From: Hyphomicrobiales bacterium
GTDB lineage: Bacteria; Pseudomonadota; Alphaproteobacteria; Rhizobiales; Beijerinckiaceae
Direction of reading: 5' to 3'
DNA length: 64,000 bases
Assembly (NCBI GenBank): GCA_027483895.1
Contig: JAIXTP010000007.1
Span: forward strand, 1 to 64,000
In this document: piece by piece, positions 12,486 through 54,568 of the stretch
How the letters are laid out: each line of letters starts with the position of its first letter
Numbering within the stretch: position 1 is the first letter of the stretch
The notes under the pieces: generated by a model
Seen by the model: the letters and a program-made list of their open reading frames with translations, nothing else
What the model was told of the DNA's origin: nothing
The model's database searches: none
Program-made: the position numbers and the translations under genes

Positions 12486-12540
12486 GGATGCAGTCTTCTC
12501 CCGTTTTCGTAACCTTCGGTGAGAGGGCGCTGCGCGCGCC

Positions 12541-12594
12541 CCCTCATCCGGCCGGCCTTCCGCCGTCCGCCTTCTCCCCCCGAGGGGAGAAGGA
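12541..12594 (+). repeat. family E repeat (CCTCATCCGGCC...GGGGAGAAGG)
   Basis: Starts CCCTCATCCGGCCGGCC and ends CTTCTCCCCCCGAGGGGAGAAGG, where CTTCTCCCC pairs with GGGGAGAAG. It lies just downstream of the Old Yellow Enzyme gene and upstream of the FAD oxidoreductase gene. A second copy of the same element is found inside the dnaE2 reading frame (29874-29926). Confidence 0.75.
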
Positions 12595-12606
12595 AGAAGC
12601 GGCCGA

Positions 12607-23686: not shown

Positions 23687-23841
23687 GGGACAACGCTGCT
23701 CCGGAAAGGACGGGCGGGGGATAACGCATGGGCTCCCGCTTGTCATCCCGAGCGCGGCTTGAGCGGGGCTCGCGCGCGTGTCAGCGTCGCCCGACGGTGC
23801 CCGGCCGATTCCCGGGCGGACTTCGCGTCGCGCGGACATCC

Positions 23842-24927
23842 ATGACGTTTCGGGTCATCGACCTCTTTTCCGGTGCGGGCGGGCTGACGCTCGGCTTCAC
23901 GGACCGCCGTTTCTGCGGCGGCTTCGAGAGCGTCTGGGCGCTGGACAAGGATGCGGCCGCGGTCGCGACCCACAAGCTGAATTTCGGCCCGCATGCCGAT
24001 TGCGGCGACATCGAGCATTGGCTGGCGGACGGCCGCCCGGTGCCCGCGGCGGACGTGGTGATCGGCGGGCCGCCCTGCCAAGGCTTCAGCCTGCTGAACA
24101 AGAACCGCGCGGGCGACGCGCGCCGGGCGCTGTGGCAGCCCTTCATGGACGTGGTGGAGCATTCGGGCGCTTCGGCCTTCGTGATCGAGAACGTGGCGGA
24201 GCTGAAGGCCTCGCCCGAGCATGAGGCGATCCGGGCACGGGCCGCGGCGATGGGCTTCGATACCGTGTCGGCGGTGCTGAACGCGGCCGATTACGGCGCG
24301 CCGCAGACGCGGCGGCGGATGCTGATGATCGGCTTCCGGCAGGGTGCTGCGGCGCCCGACTTCCCGCCGTCCCCTTCCCATGCCGCGCCCAAGGAGCGCG
24401 CCGCGGGCTCGAACCTGCCCGCGTGGCGGACGGTGCGCGAGGCCATCGGCGATCTGCCGGCGCCGACCGGCACCGAGATCCGGACCGGGGTTCGGCCGCC
24501 GTTGGATCTCCATTTCGGCCGGACGCCGACCGAGATGAGCCGCCGGCGCTACGAGGCCGTGCCGCCCGGCGGCAACCGGTTCGACCTGCAACGCAACGCG
24601 CCCGAGATCACGCCCGCCTGCTGGCTGCGTAAGCCGACGGGCGGCACCGACCTTTTCGGCCGCCTCTGGTGGGACCGGCCGTCGGTGACGATCCGGACCG
24701 AGTTCTTCAAGCCGGAAAAGGGGCGCTATCTGCATCCCGAGGCGCATCGCCCGATCACGCATCGGGAGGCGGCGCGGCTCATGGGCTTTCCGGACGATTT
24801 CCGTTTCGCGGGCGGCAAGAACGAGATCGCGCGGCAGATCGGCAACGCCGTGCCTCCCGCGCTGGGCGGCGCCGTGGCGCGGCTGGTGAAGGCGATCCTC
24901 GACGGTCGGGGTCGCGCGGCGGCTTGA
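23842..24927 (+). CDS. C5-cytosine DNA methyltransferase (Dcm-type)
   Basis: 361 residues, with conserved motifs in order: [14 protein letters not shown] (AdoMet binding), [11 protein letters not shown] with the catalytic Cys, [25 protein letters not shown], a target-recognition region at about residues 185-300, IX and X ([16 protein letters not shown]). It should be an active methyltransferase. The only partner nearby is a Vsr-type mismatch endonuclease gene on the opposite strand; no restriction endonuclease gene is seen, so it may be an orphan (regulatory or protective) methylase. ATG 23842 directly precedes motif I. Confidence 0.93.
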
Positions 24928-25239: not shown

Positions 25240-25650
25240 TCACTCCGTCAGGAAGGCGCGAAGCCGGGCTTCGAGCGCCGCGTCGTCGCGGGTCTCGCAT
25301 TCCCACACGACCAGTACGCGCCAACCGGCGGCGATGAGGTCGCGCTCCTTTCGGGCGTCGCGGGCGACGTTGCGGGCGAGCTTCTCGGTCCAGAATTCGA
25401 CGCGGGTGGACGGCATCGTCGCACGCGGGCAGCCGGGATGGGCGTGCCAGAAGCAACCGTGCACGAAGATCGCCGCCCGGTGCTTGGGCAGCACGATGTC
25501 GGGCGTGCCGGGCAGGTCGCGCCGATGCAGCCGGAAACGGAAGCCCGAGCGGTGCAGGAGCGAGCGCACGCGCATTTCGGGCTTGGTGTTCTTGGACCGC
25601 ACCTGCGCCATGGCGCGGCTGCGCTGCTCGGGCGTCATCACGTCGGCCAT
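25240..25650 (-). CDS. vsr: Vsr, very short patch repair endonuclease
   Basis: 136 residues. Vsr nicks 5' of the T in T:G mismatches created by deamination of 5-methylcytosine, starting repair. The start MADVMTPEQRSRAMAQVRSK is the classic Vsr N-terminus. LPGTPDIVLPKHRAAIFVHG includes the catalytic Asp, followed by the zinc-binding CFWHAHPGC and RVEFWTEKLARN. All look intact. The frame extends upstream through a family A repeat, so ATG 25650 is chosen. It is convergent with the cytosine methylase it presumably backs up. Confidence 0.93.
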   Translation of the reverse strand: MADVMTPEQRSRAMAQVRSKNTKPEMRVRSLLHRSGFRFRLHRRDLPGTPDIVLPKHRAAIFVHGCFWHAHPGCPRATMPSTRVEFWTEKLARNVARDARKERDLIAAGWRVLVVWECETRDDAALEARLRAFLTE

Positions 25651-26988: not shown

Positions 26989-29900
26989 CTAATGGAAGTC
27001 GCGTGACTTCGGCAGGATGCGGACATTGCGCGGATGCTGCAGGCCGCGGGCGCCCGCGCCGCCGGAGCGGCCCTCGGCGACGGGGCGGCGGACCTCGTCG
27101 GCATTGGCGAGGGGCACGGGCATGAGATCGCGCGAGAGCAGCAGGAGATCGACGGAGCGGTCGACGAGCCGCTCGGCGACGAGATGCACGATGCCCTCCG
27201 GGCTCTTCTGGATGCGGCCCTCGACGACGACGAGCCGCGCGCCCATCACCTCCTTGCGATAGGCGACGGTGACGCTCGGCCAGACCACGCAATTGACGAT
27301 GCCGGTCTCGTCCTCGAGCGTCATGAAGACCACCCCCTTGGCGCTGCCCGGCTTCTGGCGGACGAGCACGACGCCCGCCGCCGTCACGCGCCGGCCGTCC
27401 CGCGCCGCAGCGAGCTCGCGGCAGGTCGAGACGCCCTTGCGGGCATAGAGCGCCCGCAGAAAGCCCATCGGGTGCCCCTTCAGCGAGAGATGCAGGGTGC
27501 GGTAATCGGCGGCGACATGCTCGCCGAGCGGCATGGTCGGAAGCTCGACCATGGGCTCCTCGGCGAGCTCCTCGGCATGCATGGCTGCAAACAGCGGCAA
27601 CGCGACGTCGTCGGGCAGCCGCCGGACCTCCCATGCGGCCTCGCGGCGATCGAGGCCGAGGGAGCGGAAGGCGTCGGCCTCGGCGAGCTTCACCAGCGCG
27701 GCCTTGGGCAGGCCCGCGCGCCGCATCAGGCTCTCGGCCGAGGCGTAGAAACCGTTGCGCCGGGCCGTGAGCCGCTCGGCCCACTCCTCGCGGAAACCTT
27801 CGATCCGGCGGAAGCCGAGACGGATGGCGAGGGTTCCGTCGGCGCGCTCTTCGAGCGTGTTGTCCCACCGGCTCGCATTGACGTCGGGCGCGCGGACCTC
27901 GACGTCGTGATCGACCGCGTCGCGCACGATCTGCGCGGGAGCGTAGAAGCCCATGGGCCGGCAGTTGAGCAGCGCCGCGGCGAAGGCTGCGGGGTGCCGG
28001 CATTTGAGCCAGGCGGAGGCATAGACGAGCAGTGCGAAGGACGCGGCATGGCTCTCGGGAAAGCCGTATTCGCCGAAGCCCTCGATCTGCTTGAAGCATT
28101 GCGCGGCGAAGCGCGCGTCGTAGCCGCGCCGCACCATGCCTTCGACCATCTTCTGCTGAAACAGATGGATGGTGCCGACCCGCCTGAAGGTGGCCATGGC
28201 GCGGCGCAGGCGGTTGGCCTCGTCGGGCGTGAATTTCGCCGCCTGGATGGCGATGCGCATGGCCTGTTCCTGAAAGAGCGGCACGCCGAGCGTCTTGCCC
28301 AGCACCTTCTCCAATTCATCGGGCGGGCCGTGCTCGGGCGCGGGCTTGGGGAAGACGACCGGCTCGCGGCTGCGGCGGCGACGCAGATAGGGATGCACCA
28401 TGTCGCCCTGGATGGGCCCCGGCCGGACGATCGCCACCTCGATCACGAGATCGTAGAAGCGCTCGGGCCTGAGGCGCGGCAGCATGTTCATCTGCGCGCG
28501 GCTCTCGACCTGGAAGACGCCGACGGAATCCGCCCGCTGCAGCATGCGGTAGACCTCGGGGTCCTCGCGCGGCACGGTGGCGAGCGACAAAGCGGGGCCG
28601 CCATGGCGTTCGATGAGCGCGAAGGCCTTGCGGATGCAGGTGAGCATGCCGAGCGCGAGGACGTCGACCTTCATGATGCCGAGCGCGTCGATGTCGTCCT
28701 TGTCCCATTCGATGAAGGTGCGGTCGTCCATCGCGGCATTGCCGACGGGCACGACCTCGTCGAGCCGGCCGCGCGTGAGCACGAAGCCGCCGACATGCTG
28801 GGAGAGATGGCGGGGGAAGCCCATGAGCCGCATCGCGAGATCGACCGTGCGGCGGATCATGGGATTGGCGGGGTCGAGCCCCGCCTGCCGGATCTGCGTC
28901 TCGTCGAGCCCCTTGCCCCAGCTGCCCCAGACGGTGTTCGCCAGCGCCGCGGTGACGTCTTCGGTGAGCCCCAGCGCCTTGCCGACGTCGCGCACGGCGC
29001 TGCGCGCGCGATAGCTGATGACGGTGGCGGCGAGGCCCGCGCGCTCGCGGCCGTAGCGCTCATAGATCCACTGGATCACCTCTTCCCGCCGCTCGTGCTC
29101 GAAATCGACGTCGATGTCGGGCGGCTCGCGCCGCTCCTCGGAGACGAAGCGCTCGAAGAGCAGGTCGATCTCGGTGGGATCGACCGAGGTCACGCCGAGG
29201 CAGAAGCAGACGACGGAATTGGCCGCCGAGCCGCGCCCCTGACACAGGATGCCGCGGCTGCGGGCGAAGGCCACGATGTCGTTCACCGTGAGGAAATAGG
29301 GCGCGTAGCCGAGCCGCTCGATCATCGCCAGTTCCTTGTCGAGCGCGGCCGCGACCTTGGCGGGAATACCTCCGGGGTAACGCCATGCCGCGCCCTTCAG
29401 GGCGAGATCTTCGAGATGGGCCTGCGCGCTGCGGCCGGGGGGGACGGGCTCTTCGGGATATTCGTAGCGCAGCTCGTCGAGGGAGAAGCGGCACTCGTCG
29501 AGGAGCTTCAGGCTCTCGGCCACGGCCTCCGGCGCGTGGCGGAAGAGGCGCGCGATCTCGGCGGGGGGCTTGAGGTGCCGCTCGGCATGAGCTTCGAGCC
29601 GGCGCCCTATGGTCTCGATGGTCGCATGCTCGCGGATGCAGGCGAGCACGTCCTGCAGCGGGCGACGCTCGGGCGCGTGATAGAGCACGTCCGTGAGCGC
29701 GACGAGGGGAATGCGCGCCTCGGCGGCGAGCGCCTGCAGGCGGGCGAGACGGCGCCGGTCCGACCCCGCATGCGGCAGCGTCGCGCCGAGGCGGAGAGAG
29801 GCGGGGCCCGCGGCGGCGAGGGCGTGGAGCAGGGCGGGGAGGGGTGCGTACTTTTCGGAGGGTTTCGCGAGACCCCTCATCCGGCCCGCCTGCGGCGGTC

Positions 29901-30357
29901 CACCTTCTCCCTCAAGGGGAGAAGGAAAGGTCACGGCGGCGGGCGTCGCGGGGAGGCGGAGGGGCGGGATCACCACGAGGTTCTGGCCCTCGGCGACGGC
30001 GAGGAGATCGGGGAGGGCGAGAAGGCAGTCGCCCTTCGCCGCGCGGCGCTTGCCGAGCGTGAGCAGGCGCGAGAGCCGGCCGTAGGCGGCGCGGTCGCGC
30101 GGGAAGCAGAGAATGTCGGGCGTGCCGTCGGCGAAGACGAGGCGCGCGCCGACGGCGAGGCGCAGGCCGGTCTTGCCCGCCTCGGTCTCCTTGAGCGCCA
30201 CATGCGCCCGCACGACGCCCGCCAGCGTGTTGCGGTCGGCGATGCCGAGGCCGGCAAGGCCGAGCCGCGCGGTTTCGGCGACCAGTTCCTCGGCATGCGA
30301 GGCGCCGCGCAGGAAGGAGAAATTCGTCGCGACGCCGAATTCGGCGAAGCCGGTCAC
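26989..30357 (-). CDS. dnaE2: DnaE2 (ImuC), error-prone DNA polymerase III alpha subunit
   Basis: C-family polymerase of the SOS mutasome, 1122 residues from GTG 30357. PHP domain at the N-terminus ([20 protein letters not shown]). The palm region has [20 protein letters not shown] and [20 protein letters not shown] with catalytic Asp residues, followed by the [9 protein letters not shown]-type helix-hairpin-helix and OB domains ([19 protein letters not shown]). The C-terminus is ILPKSRDFH, typical of DnaE2. The start overlaps the DUF559 stop (GTGA at 30354-30357). Odd point: residues about 143-162 are encoded by a family E intergenic repeat inserted in frame. Confidence 0.94.
   Translation of the reverse strand: [1122 protein letters not shown]
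29874..29926 (-). repeat. family E repeat embedded in frame in dnaE2
   Basis: On the plus strand it reads CCTCATCCGGCCCGCCTGCGG...CTTCTCCCTCAAGGGGAGAAGG, matching the intergenic copy at 12541-12594. Read as DnaE2 codons on the minus strand it gives [18 protein letters not shown] at about residues 145-162, with no frameshift or stop. Confidence 0.85.
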
Positions 30358-30680
30358 GATGCGGCCTCCTCCTCTTGCTCCCCGTCCCCGGCGAGCGCGG
30401 CGGCGATGCGGGCCTCGACCTCGGGGAAGCCGTGGAGCAGTTCGCGCCTTCCGAAGATCAGCACGCGGAAGCCCTGCGCTTCGAGGGCCGCGCAGCGGGT
30501 CCTGTCGGGCGCATGCGGCGGTTCGGAGATCGCCAGCACCAGCCGCGCGGCAAGGCAGCGATAGGCCGGGACGTCCGGGCCGAGGAGCGGAAGCCTGCGG
30601 AAATGCCGGCCCTGCGCGGACGGACGGAGCAGATGCGCGTGCAGCCGCCGCTCGGCCGGCGAGGGGGCGGAGGCGGTCAT
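30354..30680 (-). CDS. DUF559 (PD-(D/E)XK-like) protein in the mutasome operon, probably catalytically dead
   Basis: 108 residues. RLHAHLLRPSAQGRHFRRLP, RLVLAISEPPHAPDRTRCAAL and QGFRVLIFGRRELL follow the layout of DUF559 (Vsr/EndoMS-like endonuclease fold). However, the family's catalytic Asp in (Y)IVDF is replaced (DVPAY), and the Glu and Asp of LVIELDG become Ala and Ser (LVLAIS). His and the D..R pair after it are kept. The C-terminus is acidic (DGEQEEEAAS). It overlaps imuB by 4 bases (ATGA at 30677-30680) and dnaE2 by 4 (GTGA), so it is translated with them. A structural or protein-binding role in the mutasome is inferred. Confidence 0.82.
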   Translation of the reverse strand: MTASAPSPAERRLHAHLLRPSAQGRHFRRLPLLGPDVPAYRCLAARLVLAISEPPHAPDRTRCAALEAQGFRVLIFGRRELLHGFPEVEARIAAALAGDGEQEEEAAS

Positions 30681-32263
30681 GCGAAGACCCCGTGCAGATA
30701 CCAATGCGGCCGGTCGGTCTCGCGGCCGTAAAGACCGTCGCGGAACAGCCAGAAACGGCGGCCGTCGGCATCCTCCACGCGGAAATAGTCGCGCGTGGGG
30801 GTGCCCTCGGGCGCGCGCCACCATTCGGGGGCGATGCGCTCCGGCCCCTCTGCCCGGACCACGGCATGCAGCACGCGGCGCAGGCGGAAGCGGATCGGCG
30901 GGCCGTCCGGCACCTCGGCCAGCACCTCGATGCGCTCGGGCGGGTCCATCAGGCGGATCGGGCGGGGCGGGGCGGCATCGGCTTCGGGCGCGAAGATCGT
31001 CCAATCCGCGGCGAGCGCGGCGTTGCCGTGCTGCGCGGGCAGGAAGGGCGCGGCGCGTTCGGGCAGATGGGTGTCGCGGGCGGCGGGGCGCAGCACGCGC
31101 CGGCTGCCGAAACGGGCGGCGAGACGGTCGATCAGCGCGGAAAGCTCGGCCTCGAAATCCGGGCCGCGATCGAGCCGCACGGCGATCTCGGAAAAGGCTT
31201 CGACGGCGAGCGCGCACAGGCGGATCACGTCGAAGCCGAAGCCCGGATCGACCGGATCGGCGAGGGCGTCGAGCCGCTCCGCGAAGAGCCGCAGCACGCC
31301 CGAAGGTTCGCGCAGCGGCCGCCCCGTCTCGACCGCGACGGAACGCATGGCGCCGTCGGCCCGGAAGAAGACGAGTTCGAGCGCGCGTGCGCCCTCGCCC
31401 CGGCGTTCGAGGATGCGGGCGAGATCGGCCGCGAGCACGAGGATGGTTCGACGCACGTCTTCCTGCCGGCCGATGGGCTCGGCGAAACGGCGCTCGGCGA
31501 TGCAGGCGGGCGGCGCCCGGCGCGGGGAGATCGGGGCGCGGGCGAGGCCGCGCAGGAGGTCGAGCCGTTCGAGCGGCGCCCGGCCGAAACGGGCGACGAG
31601 CGGTGCGCGGGGGCGCAGCGCGAGATCGGCGACGGTCCTGAGGCCGAGATGGAGCAGGCCGCCCTGCGTCGCCGCATCGAGGCGCAGCGCGGCGATCGGC
31701 AGGCCCGCGACGGCTTCGGCCTCGCCGCCCGGCGGCACGATGCCGCCGCCGCCGCATTCCGCGACGGCCCGGGCCGCGGCCGCAGTGCCCGCGACGGCGG
31801 CGCGGACGGAAAAACCGAGCCGGCCGAAGCGCGACACGGCGTCTTCGATCACGTTTCGTTCTCCGCCGAAGAGATGCGCGGCGCCCGTGATGTCGAGCAG
31901 AAGGGCGTCGTCGCCGTCGAGGCCGACGAGCGGTGTCCAGCGTTCCGCCCGGTCCGCGAGAGCGGAGAGGAGGGCGCGGTCGGCCGTGGGGTCGGCCTCG
32001 TGGACGGCGAGGTCGGGCCGGATCGCGCGGGCGGTGGCGAGCGTCATGCCGGGATGCAGGCCGAGGGCGGCTGCGGCCTCGTCCACCGCCGCGAGCGCGG
32101 AGGCGCCGCCCGCCCGCATCACGGTGACGAGGGGGGCGGGTTCGAGGGCGGTGGCGTCAGGCCCGGAGGCGGACGACCGCGCCTTCCGCTTCAGCCGGTC
32201 GGTCGCCAGCGTCGGGAAGACGAGCGCCAGAATGCGTTGCGGGTTCGAAACGGCGTCGCTCAT
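30677..32263 (-). CDS. imuB: ImuB, Y-family polymerase-like mutasome protein
   Basis: 528 residues. In the mutasome ImuB bridges DnaE2, ImuA and the beta clamp. N-terminal RILALVFPTLATDRLKRK and the strand LDGDDALLLDITGAAHLFGG match ImuB. The Y-family catalytic acidic residues (DxDxF near the N-terminus; SxDE) are absent, consistent with a non-polymerising role. The C-terminus DYFRVEDADGRRFWLFRDG is typical. ATG 32263 leads directly into the conserved strand but lies 107 bases inside imuA, an unusually long overlap. The stop overlaps the DUF559 start. Confidence 0.92.
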   Translation of the reverse strand: MSDAVSNPQRILALVFPTLATDRLKRKARSSASGPDATALEPAPLVTVMRAGGASALAAVDEAAAALGLHPGMTLATARAIRPDLAVHEADPTADRALLSALADRAERWTPLVGLDGDDALLLDITGAAHLFGGERNVIEDAVSRFGRLGFSVRAAVAGTAAAARAVAECGGGGIVPPGGEAEAVAGLPIAALRLDAATQGGLLHLGLRTVADLALRPRAPLVARFGRAPLERLDLLRGLARAPISPRRAPPACIAERRFAEPIGRQEDVRRTILVLAADLARILERRGEGARALELVFFRADGAMRSVAVETGRPLREPSGVLRLFAERLDALADPVDPGFGFDVIRLCALAVEAFSEIAVRLDRGPDFEAELSALIDRLAARFGSRRVLRPAARDTHLPERAAPFLPAQHGNAALAADWTIFAPEADAAPPRPIRLMDPPERIEVLAEVPDGPPIRFRLRRVLHAVVRAEGPERIAPEWWRAPEGTPTRDYFRVEDADGRRFWLFRDGLYGRETDRPHWYLHGVFA

Positions 32264-33005
32264 GGTTCCACTCCAACATCCATGATCCCGGTTCCCCGGT
32301 TCCGCCGATCTGGCGGTTGCGTTCCAGCGTCGCGAGAAAGGCGGGCGGGCCGAGGCCGAGCCCCGCCTCCGCCCGGCTCGGCGCGGCGGCGACGGACCAG
32401 CGCGTCGCCGCGGCATCGGGCCCGCCGCGCCCGCCCGAGCGCAGGAGCAGCGCGGGAACGCCCGAGCCTTCGGCGGCGAGGACGAGCCGGCGCAGCGCGG
32501 TGAGATCGAGCGCCTTCGGGTCGCCCCAGGGCTCGACGATCACGGCGCCGAGCGCGGCGCAGCGCAGTGCTTCCTCGCCGGCGCGCAGCACGTCGCGTGC
32601 ATCGGCCGCGGCGACGAGCGTGAGGCGCGACGGATCGAGGCCCAGCCCGGCGAGGCCCGGGGCATGGATCTCGCCGAATTCGCGCACGGCCATGTCCTGC
32701 CGCACCCAGACGATCGGCCGGTCTCCGGCGAGACGCATCGCGGCGAGCGCGGCGAAGCCGCAGGCCGCGGGCTCGTCGCCATAGGCGGCGGGCAGGACGG
32801 CATGCAGGGCCCCGCGCGCCGGCCCCCCTCCGAGCGCCCGATCGGCCTCCGCATGGCCGAGAGGGATGCGGGCGGTCTTCTCCTCGGGCGCGAGCTCCCG
32901 CGCCCGACCGTCCGCACCGACGGCCGCGATCTTCCGCCTCAACTCCTGAAGGTGGTCCTGCGACGCCGTACCCATCGAACCCGGCGCGTGCCGGCTCCTT
33001 TCCAT
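32157..33005 (-). CDS. imuA: ImuA, RecA-like mutasome protein
   Basis: 282 residues from ATG 33005 (272 from ATG 32975). HLQELRRKIAAV, ARIPLGHAEADRALGGGPARGALHAVLP and PIVWVRQDMAVREFGEIHAPGL follow the ImuA/SulA-like pattern: a RecA-related core without a proper Walker A Lys (GGGPARGALH). In known systems ImuA is required for SOS mutagenesis with ImuB and DnaE2. A LexA box lies 10 bases upstream of ATG 33005, so the first codons of the long frame (to 33092) are untranscribed promoter DNA. Its 3' end overlaps imuB by 107 bases. Confidence 0.87.
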   Translation of the reverse strand: MERSRHAPGSMGTASQDHLQELRRKIAAVGADGRARELAPEEKTARIPLGHAEADRALGGGPARGALHAVLPAAYGDEPAACGFAALAAMRLAGDRPIVWVRQDMAVREFGEIHAPGLAGLGLDPSRLTLVAAADARDVLRAGEEALRCAALGAVIVEPWGDPKALDLTALRRLVLAAEGSGVPALLLRSGGRGGPDAAATRWSVAAAPSRAEAGLGLGPPAFLATLERNRQIGGTGEPGSWMLEWNHERRRFEPATHSGARLPDAGDRPAEAEGAVVRLRA

Positions 33006-33015
33006 CGTCTCGTAT

Positions 33016-33030
33016 GTTCGCTTTTTGTTC
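33016..33030. promoter_or_regulatory. LexA-binding site (SOS box) for the imuA operon
   Basis: GTTCGCTTTTTGTTC fits the alphaproteobacterial LexA consensus GTTC-N7-GTTC (the minus strand reads GAAC-N7-GAAC). It is the only such site I noticed in this window and sits directly upstream of imuA, whose operon is the textbook LexA target in this class. LexA bound here would block transcription until DNA damage triggers cleavage. Confidence 0.9.
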
Positions 33031-52144: not shown

Positions 52145-54568
52145 TCAGCGATCGTCCCGACGGGGACGACGCGGCGCGCCGCCCGACGGACGCCCGCCGC
52201 CCGGACGACCGCCGCCCGGGCCGCCGCGCGGCTTGAACGGGCGGTCCCCGCCTTCGCTGCGCGGACGCGCGGGCCGGTCGCCGCCTTCGCCGCGGGCGCG
52301 GAAGGGACGATCGCCCTCCTCGCGACGCGGACGCGCGGACCGGTCGTCGTTCGAGCGGCTGCGGAACGGCCGGTCGCCGCCCTCGCTGCGGGCGCGGAAG
52401 GGACGATCGCCCTCCTCGCGACGCGGACGCGCGGGCCGGTCGTCGTTCGAACGGCTGCGGAAGGGTCGGTCACCGCCCTCGCTTCGGGCGCGGAAGGGAC
52501 GATCGCCCTCCTCGCGACGCGGACGCGCGGGGCGGTCGTCTCCCGAACGGCTGCGGAACGGGCGGTCGCCGCCTTCGCTGCGGGCGCGGAAGGGCCGGTC
52601 GCCCTCCTCGCGACGCGGATGCGCGGGCCGGTCGTCGTTCGTACGGCTGCGGAAGGGCCGCTCGCCGCCTTCGCCGCGGGCGCGGAAGGGACGATCGCCC
52701 TCCTCGCGACGCGGACGCGCGGGCCGATCGTCGTTCGAGCGGCTGCGGAAGGGGCGGTCTCCGCCTTCGCTACGGGCACGGAAAGGACGATCACCCTCCT
52801 CGCGGCGCGGCCGGAACGGCTTGTCTTGCCGGTCGGCGCGCGGGGCGCGGCGGGGTTCGTCCTCGCGGATCTCCTCGCGGGGCTCCGACTTCACGCGTTC
52901 GACGAGAACCTTGCGGCCCTTGGGGCTTTCGATGCGGCCGGCACGTTCATGCGTGCGCTCGCCGCTTTCCGAGCGGGCCGCCTTGGGGTCGGCGCCGCGG
53001 CGCGGAACGCGCGCCTTGGGCGTGCGCGGCGCGTCCGGATCCTCGTCCGCACGCCAGATCGAGCGCAGGGGCTCGGTCGGGGCGCGGCGCTTCGGCCGGG
53101 GCTTTTCCTCGACGCTCTCCTCGCGGTCGCGGCCGAAACGGCCGCGCGGGCGGTCGCCGTCGCGGTCGCCGAAGCCGCGGTCGTCGTCGCGGGGGCGACG
53201 GGCGGGGCGGTCGCCCTCGTCCCCCCGACCCTGCCACTCGCGTTTCTTCGGGTGGAAGTCCTCGTCCTCGTAGACGAAGACGGGCGCGTCGAAATCGACT
53301 TCGGCTTCGGCCGCGAGCGTTTCGCCGAGCTGATCCTTGAGGATCGCCGTACGCACTTCCTCGACCGAGCCTTCGGGCAGGTCGTTGAGCTGGAACGGGC
53401 CGAAGGACACGCGGATGAGGCGGTTCACCTGCAGGCCGAGATGTTCGAGGACGCGCTTGACCTCGCGGTTCTTGCCCTCTCGCAGGCCCAGCGTCAGCCA
53501 GACATTGTCGCCCTGCTCGCGCTGGATCTCGGCCTCGATCGGGCCGTAATGCATGTCGTCGACGGTGATCCCGTCGGCGAGCGCGTCGAGATCGGCCTGC
53601 GTGATGGAGCCGTAGGCGCGGACGCGATAGCGGCGCAGCCAGCCGGTCGACGGATGCGAGATGACGCGGGCGAGGCCGCCGTCGTTCGTCAGCAGCAGCA
53701 GGCCCTCGGTGTTGATGTCGAGGCGACCGATGGTGACGACGCGCGGCAGGCCCGGCGGCAGGGAGGCGAACACCGTGGGCCGGCCTTCCGGATCCCAGGC
53801 GGTCGTCACGAGGCCCGCGGGCTTGTGATAGAGGAAGAGGCGCGTGCGCTCCTTGGTCGGGATCGGCTTGCCGTCGACCATGACGACGTCGCGCTCGGTG
53901 ACGTCGAGGGCCGGGCTCGTCAGGACCTCGCCGTTGACCGCGACGCGGCCCTCCTCGATCCACGCCTCGGCATCGCGGCGCGAGCAGAGGCCCGCACGCG
54001 CGATGACCTTCGCCACGCGGTCCTTGAAGGTCTTGCGGATCTTCGGACCCTTTTCGCGACGATCCGGACCGGCACCGCGGCCGCGGTCCTCGAAGCGGGG
54101 GCGGAACGAGCGCTCCCCGTCCTCGCGACGCGGGCGGAAGGGACGATCCTCGCCGGAGCGGGCGCGGAACGGGCGGTCTCCGTCCTCGCGGCGCGGACGC
54201 GCGGGACGGTCGTCGCCTGAACGGGCGCGGAAGGGGCGGTCGCTGTCCTCGCGGCGCGGACGCGCGGGGCGGTCGTCGCCTGAACGGGCCCGGAAGGGAC
54301 GGTCTGCGTCCTCGCGGCGCGGACGCGCGGGGCGGTCGTCGCCGGAGCGGGCGCGGAAGGGACGGTCTCCGTCCTCGCGACGCGGACGCGCGGGTCGGTC
54401 GTCGCCGGAGCGGGCGCGGAAGGGACGGTCGCCGTCGTCACGACGGGGACGGTCGCCGGCGTCGCGCGGGCGCGACGGGCGTTCGGTGCGGGAGCCGGGA
54501 CGGCGTGAATCGTCCCGGGGCGGACGGCCTCGGCCGCCGCCGCCGCGGTTTTTGCTGTCGTCTGTCAT
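52145..54568 (-). CDS. rluB: RluB-type 23S rRNA pseudouridine synthase with long Arg/Asp-rich repeat tails
   Basis: 807 residues. The catalytic core sits at about residues 175-420: an S4 domain (VAKVIARAGLCSRRDAEAW) and the synthase domain with the catalytic Asp in IGRLDINTEGLLLL and REGKNREVKRVLEHLGLQVN. A typical RluB is about 250-300 residues. The rest is low complexity: an N-terminal tail with five 21-residue repeats (residues 48-152) and a C-terminal tail with five 32-residue repeats (594-753), both rich in RPFRAR and DDRPARPRR. These tails probably bind RNA or drive phase separation (inference). ATG 54568. Confidence 0.92.
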   Translation of the reverse strand: MTDDSKNRGGGGRGRPPRDDSRRPGSRTERPSRPRDAGDRPRRDDGDRPFRARSGDDRPARPRREDGDRPFRARSGDDRPARPRREDADRPFRARSGDDRPARPRREDSDRPFRARSGDDRPARPRREDGDRPFRARSGEDRPFRPRREDGERSFRPRFEDRGRGAGPDRREKGPKIRKTFKDRVAKVIARAGLCSRRDAEAWIEEGRVAVNGEVLTSPALDVTERDVVMVDGKPIPTKERTRLFLYHKPAGLVTTAWDPEGRPTVFASLPPGLPRVVTIGRLDINTEGLLLLTNDGGLARVISHPSTGWLRRYRVRAYGSITQADLDALADGITVDDMHYGPIEAEIQREQGDNVWLTLGLREGKNREVKRVLEHLGLQVNRLIRVSFGPFQLNDLPEGSVEEVRTAILKDQLGETLAAEAEVDFDAPVFVYEDEDFHPKKREWQGRGDEGDRPARRPRDDDRGFGDRDGDRPRGRFGRDREESVEEKPRPKRRAPTEPLRSIWRADEDPDAPRTPKARVPRRGADPKAARSESGERTHERAGRIESPKGRKVLVERVKSEPREEIREDEPRRAPRADRQDKPFRPRREEGDRPFRARSEGGDRPFRSRSNDDRPARPRREEGDRPFRARGEGGERPFRSRTNDDRPAHPRREEGDRPFRARSEGGDRPFRSRSGDDRPARPRREEGDRPFRARSEGGDRPFRSRSNDDRPARPRREEGDRPFRARSEGGDRPFRSRSNDDRSARPRREEGDRPFRARGEGGDRPARPRSEGGDRPFKPRGGPGGGRPGGGRPSGGAPRRPRRDDR
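52310..52789 (-). repeat. tandem repeat, 5 x 96 bp, C-terminal tail of the rluB-like gene
   Basis: Five in-frame copies of a 32-residue unit (RPFRARSEGGDRPFRSRSN then DDRPARPRREEGD), differing mainly by single residues (for example NDD versus GDD, PARP versus PAHP). Unit length is a multiple of three, so expansion or contraction keeps the frame. Confidence 0.9.
54113..54427 (-). repeat. tandem repeat, 5 x 63 bp, N-terminal tail of the rluB-like gene
   Basis: Five in-frame copies of a 21-residue unit built on RPFRARSGDDRPARPRRED followed by GD, AD or SD. It shares its sub-motifs with the C-terminal array, suggesting a common origin. Confidence 0.9.

Follow-up and report, generated by a model that had tools for sequence, protein, structure and literature searches.

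What is a gene of the DUF559 nuclease family doing between imuB and dnaE2, inside an operon for error-prone DNA synthesis? Is its product still a nuclease? Is the gene kept by selection and, if so, does the protein act together with those encoded on either side of it? We consider these questions for a window of 64,000 nucleotides, the whole stretch of DNA that was analysed, which makes up the opening 64 kb of contig C34 in an assembly of 3.15 Mb that is 93% complete. The genome of the window is denoted G000 and its two congeners G001 and G002. The features concerned are the following.

33016..33030, minus strand: LexA-type SOS box GAACAAAAAGCGAAC, directly 5′ of imuA.
32157..32975, minus strand: imuA; NCBIfam ImuA 52 bits (cut-off 150), 70% identical in G001.
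30677..32263, minus strand: imuB, Y-family polymerase homolog; Pfam IMS and IMS_C, G001 ortholog 80% identical.
30677..30680, minus strand: ATGA overlap of the imuB stop and the DUF559 start; absent as such in G001.
30354..30680, minus strand: DUF559 pseudonuclease gene, ATG at 30680, TGA at 30354, 108 amino acids; supported by Pfam, purifying selection and predicted fold.
30513..30566, minus strand: former active-site stretch, residues 39-56; A39, A50 and S52 replace D, E and D, H56 is kept.
30354..30357, minus strand: GTGA overlap of the DUF559 stop and the dnaE2 GTG start; a 17-nt overlap in G001.
26989..30357, minus strand: dnaE2, error-prone polymerase, GTG start; NCBIfam PRK05672, 1484 bits.

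Read along the minus strand the order is a LexA-type box, imuA, imuB, the 108-codon DUF559 gene and dnaE2. This gene order behind the box is that of the ImuA-ImuB-DnaE2 mutasome operon type, and the initial annotation was right to place the DUF559 gene inside a mutasome operon with an SOS box. ImuB is a disabled polymerase and DnaE2 the active enzyme. We take GAACN7GAAC to be the alphaproteobacterial LexA box, and a box of the same form as that of the window occurs near the imuA start in G001, G002, G013, G077 and G030. On the evidence of box and gene order the DUF559 gene is probably co-expressed with the others under SOS control, and its product would be made together with ImuA, ImuB and DnaE2 once LexA is inactivated.

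The first gene of the operon is named imuA from its position and sequence conservation, the NCBIfam score being under the cut-off. Its start was picked to agree with the G001 frame, and the open frame extends to 33092. The imuA and imuB genes overlap by approximately 107 nt (32157-32263); match positions indicate long overlaps in G001 and G013 also. Within DnaE2, some 30 residues encoded in frame at 29842-29931 (minus strand) resemble a translated intergenic repeat, of which a related copy lies at 12540-12595. This stretch is missing from the G001 DnaE2.

The DUF559 layout that had been recognized in the 108-residue protein is supported by PF04480, which scores 30.5 bits against a curated cut-off of 20.6 (32.1 bits in a whole-genome scan); the G001 ortholog scores 26.5 bits. 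The vsr model TIGR00632 gave no match to this protein at E ≤ 0.1, the true vsr of the window scoring 160 bits, and PADLOC returned no match.

The active site is another matter. Alignment columns 39, 50 and 52 hold D, E and D in all of 24 other DUF559 proteins. The window protein has A39, A50 and S52, which confirms the earlier statement that the catalytic residues are replaced, and the G001 ortholog has A, V and A. The 24 relatives were picked with the window protein as query, hence without selection for an intact motif. There were 32 loci at the start; two copies of the window gene and four fragmentary or doubtful frames were taken out, L027 gave no match, and the window and G001 proteins were counted apart from the 24. 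In an alignment of loci from a profile search (n = 16, including G001) the D of DF and the E of ExDG are present in all 15 others and the D of ExDG in 14 of them, the exception being L074, with VEVEG. Two further family positions have changed in both orthologs. Q30 of FRRQ, present in 23 of 24 relatives, is leucine in the window and valine in G001, and R75 of VLRF, present in 24 of 24, is isoleucine and valine, respectively.

The acidic D and ExD of an active PD-(D/E)XK nuclease are therefore found in neither ortholog. Both orthologs retain E10 and H56, and this might allow a rearranged active site in which these two residues act with others and the enzyme still cuts. We consider that very improbable, as D39, E50 and D52 have all been lost in both proteins and the substitutes at the latter two positions differ. 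The differing replacements at 50 (A/V) and 52 (S/A), like the loss of D59 and R62 in G001 only, have the appearance of sequence under relaxed constraint. A candidate clamp-binding motif in the window protein, RRLPLLG, which is similar to the motif QLPLW, was dropped because G001 has RRVALAG at that place.

Has the fold outlived the active site? An AF2 model built from 27 rows, an input that included 26 viral-contig DUF559 sequences out of 47 loci, has a pLDDT of 81.2 and a pTM of 0.72. Prediction from the single sequence gave a model with a pLDDT of 77.6 and a pTM of 0.69, the other four of the five models being poor (54 or below). The best solved match of the 27-row model is NGO0050 (PDB code 3hrl), which we take to be a DUF559 protein, with Z 12.0 and an rmsd of 2.6 over 94 aligned residues; the single-sequence model matches the same structure with Z 10.7 and an rmsd of 2.7 over 93. 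Next, for the 27-row and single-sequence models respectively, come I-Bth0305I (Z 8.4 and 8.0) and Vsr (1cw0, Z 7.5 and 7.1), where a Z below 8 possibly means just a common arrangement. Foldseek gave nothing at E ≤ 0.001 and placed 3hrl at E 0.0018. Mitoribosome chains appear among the fold matches also, presumably as carriers of RAP domains. The models indicate that a PD-(D/E)XK/Vsr-like fold is kept in the 108-residue protein, and the description of a structurally intact nuclease holds at the level of prediction, with 3hrl the closest structure. The first half of the molecule is basic, residues 1-48 having a net charge of +6 and +9 in the two orthologs. Eleven of 14 arginines are common to both, a proportion not clearly above the overall identity of 61 in 93 core residues.

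We turn to selection. An open frame alone is weak evidence, since this G+C-rich window contains many long spurious frames. Comparison of G000 with G001 over 93 core codons gives pN of 0.229 and pS of 0.490, a ratio of 0.47 with a bootstrap 95% interval of 0.32-0.67; none of 2000 resamples from this one species pair reached 1. As controls, ratios of 1.21 to 1.57 were obtained for both alternative sense frames and for two of the antisense frames; the third antisense frame has a ratio of 0.59 and a stop in each species. With an upper bound of 0.67, simple decay of the gene is therefore unlikely as judged from this pair of sequences. The protein is, by the same measure, kept by purifying selection in the two species, the test being modest because it draws on only one pair. 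The orthologs are identical over at most 15 consecutive residues, 34-48, a run that spans the lost D39 (match permutation p 0.029). In terms of NG86 dN/dS over the full alignment the DUF559 gene stands at 0.42, compared to 0.26 for imuB and 0.18 for dnaE2.

How far is the arrangement shared? G001 has the same four-gene order, with the DUF559 ortholog in the same place. A survey of the G genomes and 80 genome_contigs records yielded 132 imuB/dnaE2 loci, 125 of them with a measurable junction. A DUF559 gene lies between in three loci, which represent two genomes (G000 once and G001 twice; some other genomes are also doubled under different handles), and in none of the other measured junctions. 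Of the 125 junctions, 101 have imuB and dnaE2 at most 30 nt apart. Three of the larger gaps free of DUF559, of 553 nt in G021, 495 nt in Rhodopseudomonas palustris and 220 nt in G014, resemble intergenic repeats by eye. A protein search of genome_contigs, which covers close relatives only, found none, and a plasmid search gave one record, a Sphingomonas DUF559 protein at 34%.

A profile with the G000 and G001 proteins as its two rows was searched against overlapping sets of 397 family, 397 order, 385 class and 398 phylum genomes, with an E limit of 1e-13 (1e-12 for class) and at most 11 candidates scored per genome, settings that divergent relatives could escape. Within those limits no further close relative was found. 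The next matches reach 60.5 bits at most; those of G000 and G001 arise by construction, as they are the rows of the profile. Two candidates were rejected. A low-scoring DUF559 match in G002 lies in the final part of a frame of 1065 residues, which by eye looks like a helicase and keeps VEVDG; it is not the ortholog. In Alsobacter metallidurans (L099) the DUF559 model also matches a gene downstream of dnaE2, which on reading is a vsr, 53% identical to that of the window.

The initial annotation saw in the DUF559 protein a subunit of the mutasome, and held that absence of the gene from the operons of close relatives would speak against this. Such absence is largely what is observed (3 of 125 junctions, two genomes). 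Because G002 and the other measured junctions lack the gene, its product is not a general part of the mutasome, which can evidently do without it. Nor do the short overlaps constitute a lasting lock. The 4-base ATGA and GTGA overlaps with imuB and dnaE2 are present in the window as had been described. In G001 a gap of 90 nt separates imuB from the DUF559 gene, which overlaps dnaE2 by 17 nt, and therefore the order is common to both species and the 4-base lock is not conserved.

These observations bring forward the possibility that the gene is a passenger, which entered the operon by chance and became inactive, perhaps since nuclease expression coupled to the SOS response was harmful, and which now persists with no role in mutagenesis under weak selection, acting for example to maintain translation of dnaE2 or to keep the protein harmless. 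We regard this as doubtful, yet nearly as likely as an accessory function. Restriction to two genomes, evolution faster than that of imuB and dnaE2, and junctions that are not conserved are all in keeping with it. So is the abundance of scattered DUF559 genes in relatives. Among 60 genomes (G000 included), 35 have PF04480 matches, 73 in all, and only those of G000 and G001 are at imuB, judged by eye with ImuB places covering G000-G035. A passenger sits less well with a frame that is intact in both species at a pN/pS clearly below 1, and with the conserved segment around the former active site.

The third congener deserves comment. MutL of G001 and G002 shares 86% and 83% identity, respectively, with that of the window, and G002 is a true congener. 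Its mutasome locus (L232, C19) has no DUF559 gene, and ImuB and DnaE2 are 42% and 54% identical to their window counterparts, as opposed to 67% and 74% for G013, which belongs to another genus. Since the G002 values fall below those of some other genera, its mutasome is probably of different descent, and the sequence comparison suggests operon replacement within the genus. Judged by ImuB, Rhizobiales bacterium TNE-4 (66%) and Alsobacter metallidurans (58%) are among the nearest named records. The surroundings of the operon vary also, with mutL as neighbour in G000 and apparent rsmD and hisS genes on either side in G001; in G002 rsmD adjoins mutL (gene names are by reading). Beside rsmD in the window is a gene at about 52150-54450 that reads as a pseudouridine synthase and has long arginine-rich repeats of DRPFRSR type at both ends. 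Its counterpart is at L231 6146-8578.

Two other genes of the window, both a few kb downstream of dnaE2, are relevant to what the DUF559 protein might do.

25240-25650, minus strand: vsr; TIGR00632, 160 bits.
23728-24927, plus strand: Dcm-type cytosine methyltransferase; TIGR00675, 155 bits.

In Alsobacter metallidurans vsr adjoins dnaE2 (L099 7479-7874), the sole vsr/dcm match in 86 loci. The two genes in the same window, and G001 DNA that matches vsr at 80%, raise the idea that the DUF559 protein is an SOS-induced DNA binder that stands alone outside the mutasome, for example as a competitor or modulator of the Vsr/Dcm system. There is a parallel in Caulobacter VsrA, a DUF559 protein which PMC12907096 describes as DNA-damage-inducible and tied to cytosine methylation. 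We think this improbable. No tie of the DUF559 gene to methylated sites was seen, and the vsr match of G001 is beside mutL on a contig different from that of the operon, in a draft assembly.

What can be concluded? The DUF559 gene is real and under selection, forms a lineage-restricted fourth member of a known operon, and encodes a pseudonuclease. The explanation that we prefer, with a confidence slightly short of even, is that a captured DUF559 pseudonuclease is co-expressed with ImuA-ImuB-DnaE2 under SOS control and kept as a non-cleaving binder. A gene for a Vsr-like PD-(D/E)XK protein would have been captured between imuB and dnaE2 in the ancestor of the two congeneric species, an event assigned to their common ancestor because the gene is absent elsewhere. 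The active site would then have been lost and the fold retained, giving a lineage-specific accessory that would bind DNA, or one of the mutasome proteins, where error-prone synthesis takes place. The basic first half could serve to grip primer-template or fork DNA, or to link proteins to one another. We infer the partnership with the mutasome, as we do binding to DNA or protein and any effect on mutagenesis. In favour are the place in the operon, the SOS box, the loss of D, E and D in both orthologs, the pN/pS, the predicted fold and the 34-48 run; against are the two genomes, evolution faster than that of imuB and dnaE2, the unconserved junctions and the single species pair.

If this explanation is correct, a disabled nuclease in the operon would show how error-prone polymerase complexes recruit new parts. 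Within the genus, two members that carry the gene (G000 and G001) can be set against one that lacks it (G002), a natural comparison. If the gene is only a passenger, the locus is a caution against inferring function from a 4-base overlap. A literature search confined to open-licence papers found no report of DUF559 linked to a mutasome operon.

Comparison with known systems is informative. The window protein resembles members of the DUF559 family PF04480, such as NGO0050 (3hrl) and Caulobacter VsrA (CCNA_02930), in Pfam match and predicted fold, and has the family landmarks AERRL, HFRR, ARLV and GFRVL.F. It differs from the usual member in lacking D, E and D and in sitting in a mutasome operon. 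With the Vsr endonuclease (1cw0) it shares a similar predicted fold, at a Z of 7.5 that may mean just a common arrangement, but not an intact catalytic centre, and the true vsr is a separate gene of the window. Two analogies provide precedent for a DUF559/Vsr-like domain that is non-cleaving or attached to another protein. FASTKD4 has a Vsr-like fold, and its authors conclude (PMC11879112) that it binds without cleavage; it is a mitochondrial RNA binder, and the comparison concerns the fold and the proposed lack of cleavage. DUF559 is also found fused to a TrmJ-type SPOUT methyltransferase, according to PMC1829167. There the domain is joined to a nucleic-acid enzyme in the context of RNA methylation, whereas that of the window is free-standing. 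We note that G054 (L243 4777-5079, minus strand) has a TrmJ-like methyltransferase frame with a C-terminal DUF559 domain whose ExDG motif is altered (IDFEPH), a possible further pseudonuclease on sequence grounds.

The operon itself has the gene order of the alphaproteobacterial ImuA-ImuB-DnaE2 operon and the SOS box 5′ of imuA, and differs from the standard form in the additional gene that separates imuB from dnaE2. Extra partners in SOS mutagenic polymerase operons have precedent in SRAP and stand-alone ImuB-C (PMC3765255), although these belong to other domain superfamilies and are widespread. The mutasome, moreover, is partly built of disabled enzymes, with ImuB and the proteobacterial ImuA group, which lacks the ATPase motifs, as the examples (PMC12926913).
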